This document shows positions 2,520-57,788 of a stretch of DNA of 57,788 bases, piece after piece. The notes under the pieces were generated by a model. That model was given only the letters and a program-made list of their open reading frames with translations, was not told the DNA's origin and did not search any database. A program made the translations under genes and the position numbers. Numbering within the stretch: position 1 is the first letter of the stretch; each line of letters opens with the position of its first letter. This stretch comes from Candidatus Saccharimonadota bacterium. Its GTDB lineage: Bacteria > Patescibacteriota > Saccharimonadia > Saccharimonadales > Saccharimonadaceae. The stretch spans positions 1 to 57,788 of the forward strand of contig JAFRBS010000018.1 of assembly GCA_017404725.1 (NCBI GenBank), given 5' to 3'.

Positions 2520-3688
2520 TGGAGTTTTCTGAACTTTCAGTTCAGGAATTTGAGAAATTCGCACTGGGTGCGCCCGGTGCGAATTTTATGCAAAGTCGCG
2601 AGATGTACGAGCGGTTCTTGAAAAACGGGCGCGAGGCGTATCTGGTCGGCGTGAAAAGTAGCGCCGGGAAGAGTGCGGAAGCTGGCGCTACGTCGGGCTC
2701 TCGTGGGAAGGTTTTGGCCGCGGGGATTTTGATGAATATGGGCTCGAAGCGAGGGCTCGGGAAGATTTTTGGTATCGCGATGGGGCCTTTAATGGATTTT
2801 TCAGCAGAAAATTGGCGCGAAGTTCTAGCCGTTTTTACCTCTGGGATGCGCGAGTTTTTGAAGCCGAAAACGGCTTTTGCGGTACAGATTACGCCGCACG
2901 CGGCGGTATCAAGGCGCGACTATGAAAACCAGCCGCTTTGTGAGGTTTTCCCGGAAATAAAGCCGGAATTAAAAAAGCTAGGTTATAAAGATCTTGGTGA
3001 GGTCGGGCAGATTAAATGGGAATATGTCATAGATTTTGGGAAGGGAAAGGCGCGAAAATCTTTGGATGAGATTTTTGACGGGTTCAGAAAGGATATTCGG
3101 ACGAGGATTAAACAGGCGTCGGAGCGATACGGGGTGAGGATTCGCGATCTGGAGTTCGACGAGCTGTCGGTTATGAAAGATATGACGGATGAGGCGGTTG
3201 CGGCGCATAATTTTCACGATAAAGACTTGAAATATTACCAGGAAATGTGGGAAGCGTTCGGCGATAAGGTCAAATTCGTGGTCGCGGAAGTGCCGAAGGA
3301 AATTGCGGAAGGAAAGGTTGAGCGGCTAGACAAGATGCCGGAGGGTTCTCAGCTTTCGGGCGAGTATGTGCCGATTTCGGCGGTGATGTATATGTTGTAT
3401 GGTCCAGAGGTGATTTCGTTATTTTCGGGCGTGACGCGGAAGTATAAAAACGTGGGTGGGTGTTCGCATTTGATTCGCTGGGAGCTGATAAAATACGCTT
3501 ACGAAAACGGTTTTTCGCGGTATGATTTTTATGGCGTGAAGCCGGTCGCGGGGAACAGCGTCTATAATTTCAAGGCGGGTTTTCGCGGAGAGATCGAGGA
3601 ACTGGTCGGGACGCACCAGCTGCCGATTACGGCGCTAGGGAAGGCCTATACTTTAAGGGCGAAGTATAAAGAATACGGCGTGTTTTAG
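2519..3688 (+). CDS. FemAB/MurM-family peptidoglycan bridge aminoacyltransferase
   Basis: 389 residues in the GNAT-like fold of FemA/FemB/MurM enzymes, which add amino acids from aminoacyl-tRNA to the lipid II peptide. Visible family marks are NFMQSREMYERF near residue 23, the IAMGPLMDF segment, a helical arm rich in charged residues in the middle, and the C-terminal FYGVKP...YNFKAGF signature. It starts on the stop of rpsA (1-base overlap). Residues 47-64 form a Gly/Ser/Ala-rich loop that breaks the usual short turn and is encoded by a DNA palindrome (2658-2691), so it looks like an insertion. The amino acid added cannot be read from sequence. Confidence 0.85.
   Translation: MEFSELSVQEFEKFALGAPGANFMQSREMYERFLKNGREAYLVGVKSSAGKSAEAGATSGSRGKVLAAGILMNMGSKRGLGKIFGIAMGPLMDFSAENWREVLAVFTSGMREFLKPKTAFAVQITPHAAVSRRDYENQPLCEVFPEIKPELKKLGYKDLGEVGQIKWEYVIDFGKGKARKSLDEIFDGFRKDIRTRIKQASERYGVRIRDLEFDELSVMKDMTDEAVAAHNFHDKDLKYYQEMWEAFGDKVKFVVAEVPKEIAEGKVERLDKMPEGSQLSGEYVPISAVMYMLYGPEVISLFSGVTRKYKNVGGCSHLIRWELIKYAYENGFSRYDFYGVKPVAGNSVYNFKAGFRGEIEELVGTHQLPITALGKAYTLRAKYKEYGVF
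2658..2691. repeat. palindrome inside femAB
   Basis: Perfect 8-bp arms GTAGCGCC (2658-2665) and GGCGCTAC (2684-2691) around 18 nt, in frame. It encodes the Ala/Gly/Ser-rich loop of the protein. Confidence 0.5.
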
Positions 3689-54712: not shown

Positions 54713-54788
54713 GCCGCGATAGCTCAGTTGGTAGAGCGCATCCATGGTAAGGATGAGGTCACCGGTTCAAACCCGGTTCGCGGCTCCA
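54713..54788 (+). tRNA. tRNA-Thr (GGT)
   Basis: Acceptor GCCGCGA/TCGCGGC, anticodon GGT in CATCCAT-GGT-AAGGATG, T arm ACCGG-TTCAAAC-CCGGT, discriminator T and encoded CCA. A fic remnant starts 7 nt later. Confidence 0.92.
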
Positions 54789-54795
54789 TTTTTGT

Positions 54796-55439
54796 ATGGC
54801 TTATCCATGCATAGCGAATTTAAATAATTACATCAATAGTGACGACGGCGAGCAGTATGATCTACTTAAAATCGCTATCGCCAATCATCGTTTCGTCTGG
54901 ATCCATCCATTCGGCAATGGCAATGGTCGCACCGACAGACTCATGACCTATGCGCTTCTTTGCAAGAAGGGTTATATTGTGCCAAATAAAATGCGCTTAT
55001 TTAACCCAACGGCTGTTTTTGCCGGTGATCGTAATAAGTATTATGATATGCTGGCTCTCGCCGATGATTATAAAGACGAGCATATTTTGGAGTGGTGCGA
55101 ATACTTCCTGTCTGGGGTTCGTGATGAGATTAAGAAATCCGAATCTCTTGCCGACGCAGAGTTCGTGAATAAGAAGATTTTGCTTCCGTCCGTTGATCGT
55201 ATGGAAAAAGCTGGTATTGTTTCTCGACTAGAAAGTAATATCCTTGGCCGCGCTGTTCGGAAGTCACTTCCGTTGCTATCGCTCAGCAAATTAAGAAGCT
55301 TCGTGATCGCAACCTCATTAAGCCGACTCGTGAAGGTGGTCGCGAATACGAAATTAGTTTTGAGAATAGCGAACTGACGCGTGTTACTTTGGAACAGATG
55401 GATCTTGCTGGGTTGCTCCCGATCAGAGTGGATCGCTAA
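54796..55439 (+). pseudogene. fic remnant, truncated and frameshifted
   Basis: The first frame encodes the Fic core with HPFGNGNGR (consensus HPFxxGNGR) near residue 37, but the N-terminal part of the domain is missing, cut just after tRNA-Thr. Near 55263 the frame shifts by one base: the old frame ends at 55377 in unlike residues, while the next frame reads a good C-terminal winged-helix-like end (SVAIAQQIKKLRDRNLIKPT) to TAA at 55437-55439. Fic enzymes transfer AMP or similar groups to proteins. The break and the tRNA junction suggest an integrated piece in decay. Confidence 0.75.
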
Positions 55440-55454
55440 AAGTAGTACATGAGG

Positions 55455-55645: not shown

Positions 55646-55674
55646 TTGCACTTTTTCAAAATCTGTGTTATCAT
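55646..55674 (+). promoter_or_regulatory. promoter of the small RNA at 55681
   Basis: TTGCAC (55646-55651), exactly 17 bp, TATCAT (55669-55674). No ORF follows. Confidence 0.65.
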
Positions 55675-55680
55675 TAGTAA

Positions 55681-55760
55681 TGAAAGAGGCCGGCTCGAAA
55701 GGCGTCCGTTATGGATACTTGCCCTGGTAGGGATAGAGCCGGTTTCGCCTTGTCTGCAAT
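55681..55760 (+). ncRNA. pseudoknotted RNA facing a DUF3800 gene
   Basis: An 11-bp stem with two G-U pairs joins 55686-55696 to 55736-55746. Inside are CCCT-GGT-AGGG (55722-55732) and a TCC/GGA hairpin. AAGGCG (55699-55704), in the loop, is the exact complement of CGCCTT (55746-55751) just after the stem: a pseudoknot. The 3' end meets the stop of the convergent DUF3800 gene. Small RNAs of the DUF3800 motif set are known near such genes; whether this is one of them needs a covariance search. Confidence 0.6.
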
Positions 55761-55763
55761 TTT

Positions 55764-56396
55764 CTACATAAGATCGAGCGACTTGAGCTCGACTATTTTC
55801 TTTCGAATAATATTGATGTATTCATCAGAATCCGTTTTTTCTTTCTGTAATGAGCGGTTAATTGACCCAACGATAATGTCGGTTAGCTGGATAAGATTAT
55901 CTCGGCGAGAATCACTTGTATCGAAATCTGCGACTTTCTTGTTTTCTCCAGAGTTCAGTTCGCGACGGATGTAAGTTTTTACGCGCAATTTATATTGTCT
56001 TGTATATTTACCATCCATTCTAATCGCAGCGTCTTCTAGTGGCATAATCGCAAGCAACTCCTTGGTGGACCAGTTATAAAGCTTATCGTTGGCTGCCAAT
56101 TTAAACATATTTGGATACTTTGCCTTATCCACATAAACCGCATAGATATCAAAATTGTACTGATTTACGATTCTTAAGAACTCTAGCTTAATAGGCTTAG
56201 CTGTCGTCCTAAACTTGAATTCATGCGAATCTTTCCATCCGAGTGAACGTCGGTATTGAGAAATTGCGTCGTCTACCAGTTGTGCTGACTCAGAATCAAT
56301 AAAGATTGCACTGGCCATCACGAATGTGGAGCTACTAGCTCCGGCCTTGAAGCCGGGATCGCCCGAATCATCTATAAAAACTAATTGCTTGCTCAT
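55764..56396 (-). CDS. DUF3800 protein
   Basis: 210 residues. VFIDDSGDPGF (acids D9, D10 and D13) and the C-terminal NLIQLTDIIVGSI are marks of the DUF3800 family, which has an RNase H-like arrangement of acids but no proven function. The minus-strand TATAAT (56404-56409) ends 7 nt before the ATG. The gene is convergent with the pseudoknotted RNA. It lies next to the fic remnant at tRNA-Thr, a mobile-looking spot. Confidence 0.85.
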   Translation of the reverse strand: MSKQLVFIDDSGDPGFKAGASSSTFVMASAIFIDSESAQLVDDAISQYRRSLGWKDSHEFKFRTTAKPIKLEFLRIVNQYNFDIYAVYVDKAKYPNMFKLAANDKLYNWSTKELLAIMPLEDAAIRMDGKYTRQYKLRVKTYIRRELNSGENKKVADFDTSDSRRDNLIQLTDIIVGSINRSLQKEKTDSDEYINIIRKKIVELKSLDLM

Positions 56397-56460
56397 TTCT
56401 CCAATTATATCATATCTTCTTCAGTTTATAGCATGGTTGCTAGCACATTGCGGTTTTTTG

Positions 56461-56554: not shown

Positions 56555-57788
56555 ATGAAGAATACAAGAAAAAACTTAATGACAGCGGGCTTGACGGCGA
56601 GCTTGGGGCTTAGTGCGTTCGCGGCGGCGGTAATGGCGCCGGGGGCGTTTGCGGCGACGTCGACGAACGGGAATACGCGAGTCGAGATGGAAGTTGCGAC
56701 GTCGATCGCGATGAAGATTGTCTCGCCGAATGATACGGATCCGGACTGTTTGGCCGAGAGTGGCGTTACTTACGGCGTGGTTAACCGCTATGCTTATAGT
56801 AACGGCGAAGGCGGGAAAGTTGTCGACACCTTCGACGGCCGGGAAGGTCAGAAAGACGAAATCAACACGAACACCTCTTGTGCGAAGCTGAACATGACGC
56901 CGAATACGTTCGATTCGACTTATTCCGACGTAACCGTCTACACGAACAGCGGTACGGGTTACGCGATTTCGGTCCAGCCAGTCGGCGGGTCGGCGGCGCT
57001 TTTAAACGTAAACGATAATACCTCGACGATTCCGGCGGGCGTCCTGGTCGAGAACAACGGGACTGTTTCCGGCGGCCAGAACCTCTGGTCTTATAAGACA
57101 GACAACGGGATCCAGCAGACTTGGTCGGCGATGGGGACGAGCGCGACGACGATTAAATCTTACGACACAGAAACGAGCGGCGGGGAAACGACGCGCGTTA
57201 CTTACGGCGTCTCGACAGGGAACAACGCGACGGGTACGTACGTAGGCTCGCTGACTTATACCGCAACGATGTTCGACGGAAGCTCGAACCCGTACGTCTC
57301 GGACGTAGCGATTCCGGCGGTCGCGAACTTAATCGCGAACACAGATAACTTATCGATTCCGTTCGGCCACGCGGCGAACGTTACGGTTACCCCGGCGGAA
57401 GGTTATTATCTTTCCGGCGTGACTTGCCCGACCGGCTTTACTTGTACCGGCTATTCTACGGACATTCCGACGACTTACCCGGCAGGGTCGCAGACGATTA
57501 CCGTTACGAACGGGAACACGAATACGACCGGGACCCTCGCTCTGACCGTTTCGCCGCTTTCGCTCAGCAATATCTCGACGATGCAAGAGATGTCGCCGGC
57601 GATCGTTCAGGGGACGGCGACAGGCGCGTCGAAGAGTTTAGCCGATACCCGTGGCGGCTCGTATACCGTAACGAAACTCGCAGATAACAACATCTGGATG
57701 ACGCAAGATCTGAAACTAGGTGGCAGCGCGGCCGTCGCGTTAGACAGCACGAACTCTGACTTGCCATCCGGCGCGTCCTACACCCTCC
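56555..57788 (+). CDS. FISUMP-type surface protein, 5' part
   Basis: 411 codons run off the right edge. A signal peptide (about 1-33, ending PGAFA-ATS) precedes a beta-rich domain (VEMEVATSIAMKIVS...), then one copy of the TP..GYYLSGVTCPTGFTCTGYST repeat and the start of a FISUMP domain (ADTRGGSYTVTKLADNNIWMTQDLK). The family match is clear and the repeat matches those in the gene at the left edge. CGGAGGAG precedes the ATG. Role in surface attachment is inference. Confidence 0.85.
   Translation, partial: MKNTRKNLMTAGLTASLGLSAFAAAVMAPGAFAATSTNGNTRVEMEVATSIAMKIVSPNDTDPDCLAESGVTYGVVNRYAYSNGEGGKVVDTFDGREGQKDEINTNTSCAKLNMTPNTFDSTYSDVTVYTNSGTGYAISVQPVGGSAALLNVNDNTSTIPAGVLVENNGTVSGGQNLWSYKTDNGIQQTWSAMGTSATTIKSYDTETSGGETTRVTYGVSTGNNATGTYVGSLTYTATMFDGSSNPYVSDVAIPAVANLIANTDNLSIPFGHAANVTVTPAEGYYLSGVTCPTGFTCTGYSTDIPTTYPAGSQTITVTNGNTNTTGTLALTVSPLSLSNISTMQEMSPAIVQGTATGASKSLADTRGGSYTVTKLADNNIWMTQDLKLGGSAAVALDSTNSDLPSGASYTL

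Follow-up and report, generated by a model that had tools for sequence, protein, structure and literature searches.

A DUF3800-IX RNA and its convergent DUF3800 gene in Saccharibacteria: a possible mobile module of an RNA-neutralised nuclease

The stretch of DNA analysed here (the window) is a contig of 57.8 kb (C7) from a 739-kb genome (G000); protein searches place close relatives of it among Candidatus Saccharibacteria, several of them of ruminant-gut origin. Near the end of this contig, a small structured RNA faces the stop of a DUF3800 gene on the opposite strand. The features of the locus are the following:

54713-54788: tRNA-Thr, followed by a partial fic gene
55646-55651 and 55669-55674, plus strand: promoter-like site of the RNA, TTGCAC and TATCAT, 17 nt apart
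55681-55762, plus strand: DUF3800-IX RNA, the region covered by covariance model R1
55686-55696, plus strand: 5′ arm of helix P1, pairing with 55736-55746
55702-55707, plus strand: 5′ arm of helix P2, pairing with 55713-55718
55713-55718, plus strand: 3′ arm of helix P2
55722-55732, plus strand: hairpin P3, CCCU-GGU-AGGG
55736-55746, plus strand: 3′ arm of helix P1
55764-56396, minus strand: DUF3800 gene, 210 aa, RNase HII-like predicted fold
55774-55802, plus strand: terminator-like hairpin with a T-rich tail inside the DUF3800 3′ end, a possible 3′ end of the RNA
56404-56412, minus strand: extended −10-like box TGATATAAT, putatively serving DUF3800, 7 nt ahead of the ATG

The RNA belongs to a recognised family. 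Positions 55686-55750 of the plus strand match the full model (1-67) of Rfam RF02968 (DUF3800-IX) at 38.0 bits, above the gathering threshold of 36.8, in a local scan with lax filters; run over the entire window at default settings, Rfam did not pick it up. R1, a covariance model trained on nine RNAs, gives it 69.6 bits, a value that reflects the presence of the window sequence in the training set. Its architecture consists of P2 and P3 closed by P1; the sequence CGAA is conserved after P1, as is a UA before the P1 3′ arm. The 11-bp stem described in an earlier note on this DNA, which had proposed a small RNA paired with the DUF3800 gene and suggested Rfam and covariance searches, is P1.

Covariation strongly supports this three-helix junction. 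In the nine-RNA alignment, 93.7% of paired cells are filled by pairs and 16 of 21 pairs have changed on both sides; over 39 RNAs the figures rise to 95.2% and 20 of 21 (10/11 pairs in P1, 6/6 in P2 and 4/4 modelled pairs in P3). The larger alignment was fitted to the covariance model and is therefore biased towards it, but its covariation score of 0.838 is far above the controls, shuffled sequences giving 0.240 and slid partners no more than 0.16. The support for the structure comes from this covariation and not from folding energy, which is unremarkable against shuffled sequence (z −1.15). The window RNA carries one C·A mismatch in P2, and one pair of this helix is a conserved U·G wobble, present in 8/9 RNAs of the first alignment and 24/37 of the larger one.

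The H-type pseudoknot that had been proposed between AAGGCG (55699-55704) and CGCCTT (55746-55751) does not survive this comparison. Its bases are complementary, but the pairing is not conserved and competes with P2: positions 55702-55704 are already used in P2 and 55746 in P1. The two nearest relatives (G497 and G422) carry AAAGCG and CGCCTT, which turns one G-C pair of the pseudoknot into A·C, and their P2 is perfect. Over the 39 RNAs the best loop-tail helix is 4.18 bp long on average, hardly more than the 4.03 bp obtained with shuffled tails.

The earlier claim that the RNA cannot code holds in softened form. An open reading frame of 87 codons (ATG at 55711) begins within the RNA region; a coding role is unlikely because the aligned RNAs show indels and free base changes. 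The 5′ leader is about 5 nt long, a T tract or terminator makes up most of the 3′ tail, and only short loops vary, so that no guide-like variable segment is seen in the aligned portion of the 39 RNAs. The promoter with 17-nt spacing is indeed present, and like the −10-like box of the DUF3800 gene it was read directly from the sequence. It matches 8/12 consensus bases, below the listing level of a promoter consensus scan, and a −10-like box (at least 5/6) lies at a comparable distance upstream of the RNA in 31/34 homologous loci. The terminator-like hairpin comes from a consensus scan that found one site against 3.3 expected by chance.

The gene that the RNA faces matches Pfam PF12686 at 41.9 bits (cut-off 21; E 2.1e-10), in keeping with the convergent DUF3800 gene described before. 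Its AlphaFold2 model, made with 33 sequences in the alignment, is predicted with high confidence (pLDDT 92, pTM 0.90) and is best matched by RNase HII (Z 12.8 over 161 of 210 residues, rmsd 2.8, 9% identity). RNase HII and eukaryotic RNase H2 structures mostly score between Z 12.8 and 11.3 and RNase HIII between 11.4 and 10.0, followed by Argonaute PIWI and others at Z 8.2 or less. The nuclease-like fold suspected from the acidic start of the protein can thus be narrowed to a confidently predicted RNase HII fold. Residues D9, D13, E59, K91, D128 and D173, among others, are invariant in 33 DUF3800 proteins. In the model, D9 lies at the end of strand 1, D128 at the end of a later strand and D173 in a helix, which we take to be the places where RNase H enzymes carry acidic residues, by general placement rather than residue mapping. 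Across eight RNA-linked pairs dN is 0.07-0.25 and dS near or past saturation, dN being far below dS throughout. An RNase H fold has been predicted for DUF3800 before (PMC10910872).

Database searches with this protein returned little else. The PADLOC candidate PDC-M04A matches it (E 7.5e-8), and plasmid records hold one distant match. The protein profile found nothing of use among PDB sequences, matches in PHROGs and NCBIfam were weak or uncharacterised, and phage records gave none for the window protein.

The decayed fic and tRNA-Thr said to adjoin the pair are both there. Directly after the tRNA (54713-55440 as a whole) lies a truncated fic, whose Fic match begins at profile position 46 of 93 and whose frame, as read from the sequence, is broken near 55260; the fragment resembles ‘mobile mystery protein B’, at a score under the cut-off of that model. 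On the other side, a large surface-protein-like open reading frame occupies 56555-57787. Such frames repeatedly adjoin IX-type RNAs, paired or unpaired, in the genus of the window (L025 3920-4327; L066 1-477; L201 1-1272).

Across genomes, RNA and gene occur together. PF12686 is present in 74/393 genomes of the class and is patchy even inside one genus. When 109 DUF3800 proteins are arranged in a tree, every member of one 33-member clade has an IX-type RNA beside its gene, and five further RNAs adjoin DUF3800s outside it; the RNA labels on this tree were assigned partly by eye, L062 being weak (18.0 bits with R2) and L119 (23.2 bits, also weak) left out. A simple stem scan missed several RNAs found by covariance model, and its blanks were not counted as absence. 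The same pairing extends to 80 loci in public genomes, chosen by two peptide patterns of the RNA-linked clade and hence representing that clade rather than all DUF3800s. These loci span Patescibacteria, Oscillospiraceae, Nitrospira, Proteobacteria, Planctomycetes, Verrucomicrobia, Chloroflexi and others. An RNA lies beside the gene in 80/80, nearly always convergent and with close 3′ ends, and RF02968 scores above gathering in 72. In the other eight a homologue below the threshold adjoins the gene, recognised by covariance model or by eye: four are apparently R2-type loci by place, L222 and L285 were found by R1 (L285 weakly), and L246 and L263 by eye. At L277 the RF02968 match is remote from the gene, and a second RNA copy lies beside it. 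In IMG/VR, RF02968 is found beside the gene in 11/12 relatives.

The convergent, neighbouring 3′ ends of nearly all loci could suggest that the RNA controls DUF3800 expression in cis, through convergent transcription or antisense read-through and without binding the protein. This is improbable, since the linkage survives changes of side and orientation. In G410:C5 a promoter, the RNA, a T tract, a Shine-Dalgarno sequence and DUF3800 follow one another in tandem on one strand, and in L217 the RNA lies downstream of DUF3800, also on the same strand. The RNA fold is moreover conserved over many phyla, and copies without a partner gene exist. That the two stay linked while their layout changes speaks for partners in function and against antisense control.

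Several loci carry more than one RNA. Two IX-type RNAs flank a single DUF3800 in G018:C7 and G064:C6 (L010 and L023), in the same orientation and with differing sequences, and two lie in tandem at one gene in L258 and L289. In L217, all on one strand, a DUF3800-XI RNA (2429-2476) lies directly upstream of the gene whose downstream RNA is of the IX type (3187-3250). In L110 (2482-2529) an XI RNA sits in the DUF3800 5′ leader, immediately before the Shine-Dalgarno sequence.

The genome of the window itself holds further copies. A second pair, again convergent, consists of an RNA at C24:16544-16606 and a DUF3800 gene at C24:16678-17181, and a third RNA (C20, 3760-3823) retains P1-P3 intact on a 4.3-kb contig that has no DUF3800. 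Searches with R1 found 20 RNAs in 393 class genomes and those with R2 found 11 in 386. Among the roughly 30 class RNAs from about 390 genomes, eight well-scoring ones lack a DUF3800 in their flanks, taken as 1.5 kb on each side and less at one contig end: G000:C20, G410:C2, G733:C4, G733:C7, G706:C8, G532:C13, G568:C62 and G479:C4. G451:C5, at 30.3 bits, is a doubtful ninth candidate. DUF3800 is matched nowhere in three of the genomes with unpaired RNAs (G568, G479 and G706), none of the genomes being fully complete. Some unpaired RNAs look decayed, and G706:C8 and G733:C7 have no clear −10. The unpaired RNA of G479 adjoins a serine-recombinase-like open reading frame (L201 1607-3079), recognised by eye. 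The converse, a clade DUF3800 protein without an RNA, was found neither in the 33-member tree clade nor at the 80 public loci.

This asymmetry bears on the main rival to a toxin-antitoxin reading, in which RNA and protein would form an effector ribonucleoprotein and the nuclease would depend on the RNA as its cofactor or activator, either as a defence enzyme or in an RNA-directed manner like OMEGA and CRISPR effectors. Such a cofactor would equally explain why the protein is never seen without its RNA. Argonaute and RuvC nucleases use RNase H folds, a TPR-DUF3800 protein is linked to Cas12a2 systems (PMC10910872), and the PADLOC match could be read in the same sense. Against it stand the RNAs that persist in genomes with no DUF3800 match, and the lack of a guide-like stretch in an RNA with so short a leader, a tail that is mostly T tract or terminator and variation confined to short loops; the latter weakens the RNA-guided version and not an activator role. 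An antitoxin may outlive its toxin and not the reverse, and a ribonucleoprotein gives less reason for keeping a lone RNA. On balance, a cofactor role appears unlikely, at something like one chance in a handful.

RNA and protein have also diverged together. Their identities correlate over 34 pairs (Mantel rho 0.479, reached by 0/5000 permutations) and remain correlated when RNA identities insensitive to gaps are used (0.321; 0/2000 permutations). The correlation holds within the genus of the window (rho 0.500, 15 pairs, 0/5000 permutations), which limits the effect of host descent.

RNA and gene together make up a minimal cassette that is mobile among bacterial genomes. In the C24 copy of G000 it forms a unit of about 680 nt between convergent pth and dprA, genes with nothing between them in at least 12 of the 30 genomes inspected, and a search for a partner gene there left RNA and DUF3800 as the sole contents. 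The same site is occupied by YefM-YoeB in G639. At the pth-dprA junctions collected from this genus (L163-L192), DUF3800 with its RNA, YefM-YoeB, unknown open reading frames or nothing at all are seen. Neighbours also differ among the nearest relatives of the window, with a reverse transcriptase in G497 and unrelated frames in G422. Of the mobile or defence setting suggested earlier, mobility is thus borne out by patchy occurrence, the precise pth-dprA insertion and IMG/VR contigs, and a part in defence is conceivable.

Mobility raises the alternative that the hairpin acts as DNA, serving as a transposition or excision signal for DUF3800 in the manner of REP/RAYT elements, with unpaired copies as non-autonomous derivatives. 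Patchy insertions, the unpaired copies, an RNase H-like fold common to transposases and the flanking copies in G018:C7 and G064:C6 would all suit such an element. Those flanking copies, however, share their orientation and differ in sequence; the conserved U·G wobble of P2, the promoters and the T tracts point to a transcript; and inspection of the pth-dprA site by eye revealed neither terminal repeats nor target duplications. A DNA element is therefore very improbable. A housekeeping or other unlisted role could be entertained, given that no DUF3800 RNA class has an assigned function, but the patchy distribution of the protein (74/393 class genomes) speaks against housekeeping, and this whole group of explanations appears quite unlikely.

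The reading favoured here, to which we give a probability of about one half, is that of a mobile two-component module working like a type III toxin-antitoxin system, an RNA-neutralised nuclease. DUF3800 would be a metal-dependent nuclease with the RNase HII fold and, most probably, RNA as its substrate, and the three-way-junction RNA of about 70 nt, made from its own promoter, would bind and block it. Upon loss of the module, or a shut-off of host transcription (for example by phage), the RNA would decay and the nuclease would be freed.

This toxin-antitoxin reading is favoured because the pairing is constant, whether by RF02968 (72/80) or by a sub-threshold homologue in the remaining loci; because RNAs exist without the protein and no clade protein without an RNA; because the two partners diverge together; and because a predicted RNase HII fold, invariant acidic residues and dN far below dS are consistent with a conserved enzyme of this kind. 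Further reasons are the minimal cassette at a site that holds YefM-YoeB in G639, the tandem type III layout of G410:C5, the two RNA copies beside one gene in L258, L289, G018 and G064, and the precedent of the AbiF-associated RNA, which neutralises its own toxin via direct binding (PMC12373285). Several points count against it. The usual convergent layout with separate promoters is unlike ToxIN, a single RNA unit stands where ToxIN has a repeat array, and some unpaired RNAs look decayed. To our knowledge, RNase HII enzymes are not toxins.

Other DUF3800 clades appear to have RNA-like elements of their own. In a clade marked by DESGNLGRGG, such an element lies on the same strand just after the DUF3800 stop (L056, L058, L065, L070, L071, L073, L078, L080, L082, L084, L112 and L114); many have a promoter, GGCGUAAGCC...GCAGC and a terminator, with two-sided changes in 14/18 predicted pairs, and no Rfam match to such an element scores above gathering in the scanned L065, L070, L072 and L084. 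In a DESGDLGFDF clade (L049, L091, L098, L104 and L115), a convergent element, AAUUCCUCUGUCG...CGACAGAGG, lies beyond the DUF3800 stop, with compensatory changes in L049 and L115 and no Rfam match to it above gathering in L098, L104 and L115. Tentatively, and with somewhat less assurance than for the window pair, DUF3800s and their RNAs may constitute a large unrecognised class of RNA-neutralised RNase HII-type toxins with clade-specific RNA folds, at least two apparently not in Rfam, in many phyla including host-dependent Patescibacteria and in proviruses.

Both the RNA family and its tie to DUF3800 genes were already known, and the window RNA is a new member. The evidence added here comprises a linkage that is constant from phylum to phylum, RNAs that lack a partner gene, co-divergence, the docking site and the RNase HII model. 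Rfam has listed DUF3800 RNAs for years, with no function assigned to them; linkage, asymmetry, co-divergence, predicted fold and a site shared with YefM-YoeB now converge on one question, namely whether the protein is toxic and the RNA neutralises it. If so, it would represent a new toxin fold for RNA-protein toxin-antitoxin systems.

Among known systems, the closest is DUF3800-IX itself (RF02968), which reportedly comes from the 2017 motif series of Weinberg et al. The window RNA scores above its gathering threshold, shares the P1/P2/P3 junction and has an adjoining DUF3800 gene; it differs in lying near the threshold and in its one P2 mismatch, and variants from the same genus fall below threshold. 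The protein resembles RNase HII (RnhB) in predicted fold and in an acidic pair ending strand 1 (DD/DE-S-G), where RNase HII has DEAGRG. Unlike RNase HII it is mobile and RNA-linked, and the two are 9% identical in sequence. OMEGA and CRISPR-type RNAs carry a guide segment, of which the aligned portion of the 39 RNAs has none.

Type III toxin-antitoxin systems (ToxIN, CptIN and TenpIN) are defined by a repeat-array antitoxin upstream of a MazF/Kid-like toxin (PMC5086642). They share with the DUF3800 pair the inhibition of an endoribonuclease by RNA, as proposed here, and the tandem layout in one locus, G410:C5. Their toxins have the MazF/Kid-like fold, whereas the DUF3800 model matches RNase HII best, and their antitoxins are pseudoknotted, whereas the pseudoknot proposed for DUF3800-IX is not conserved over 39 RNAs. 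The window pair is convergent instead of having the antitoxin upstream with a terminator between, G410:C5 being the sole exception among the loci examined, and a single RNA unit stands in place of tandem repeats at the window locus. For these reasons of operon order and repeat array, a type III-like way of working is proposed and formal membership of type III is not claimed. An experimental precedent is the AbiF (Abi_2) RNA RCd22, a structured RNA beside a protein gene that neutralises the toxin by binding in a type III-like manner (PMC12373285). AbiF is Abi_2/Cas13-like rather than RNase H-like, and its RNA lies upstream with two motif copies; in both systems a structured RNA is tied to one protein family and is found in mobile and prophage settings.
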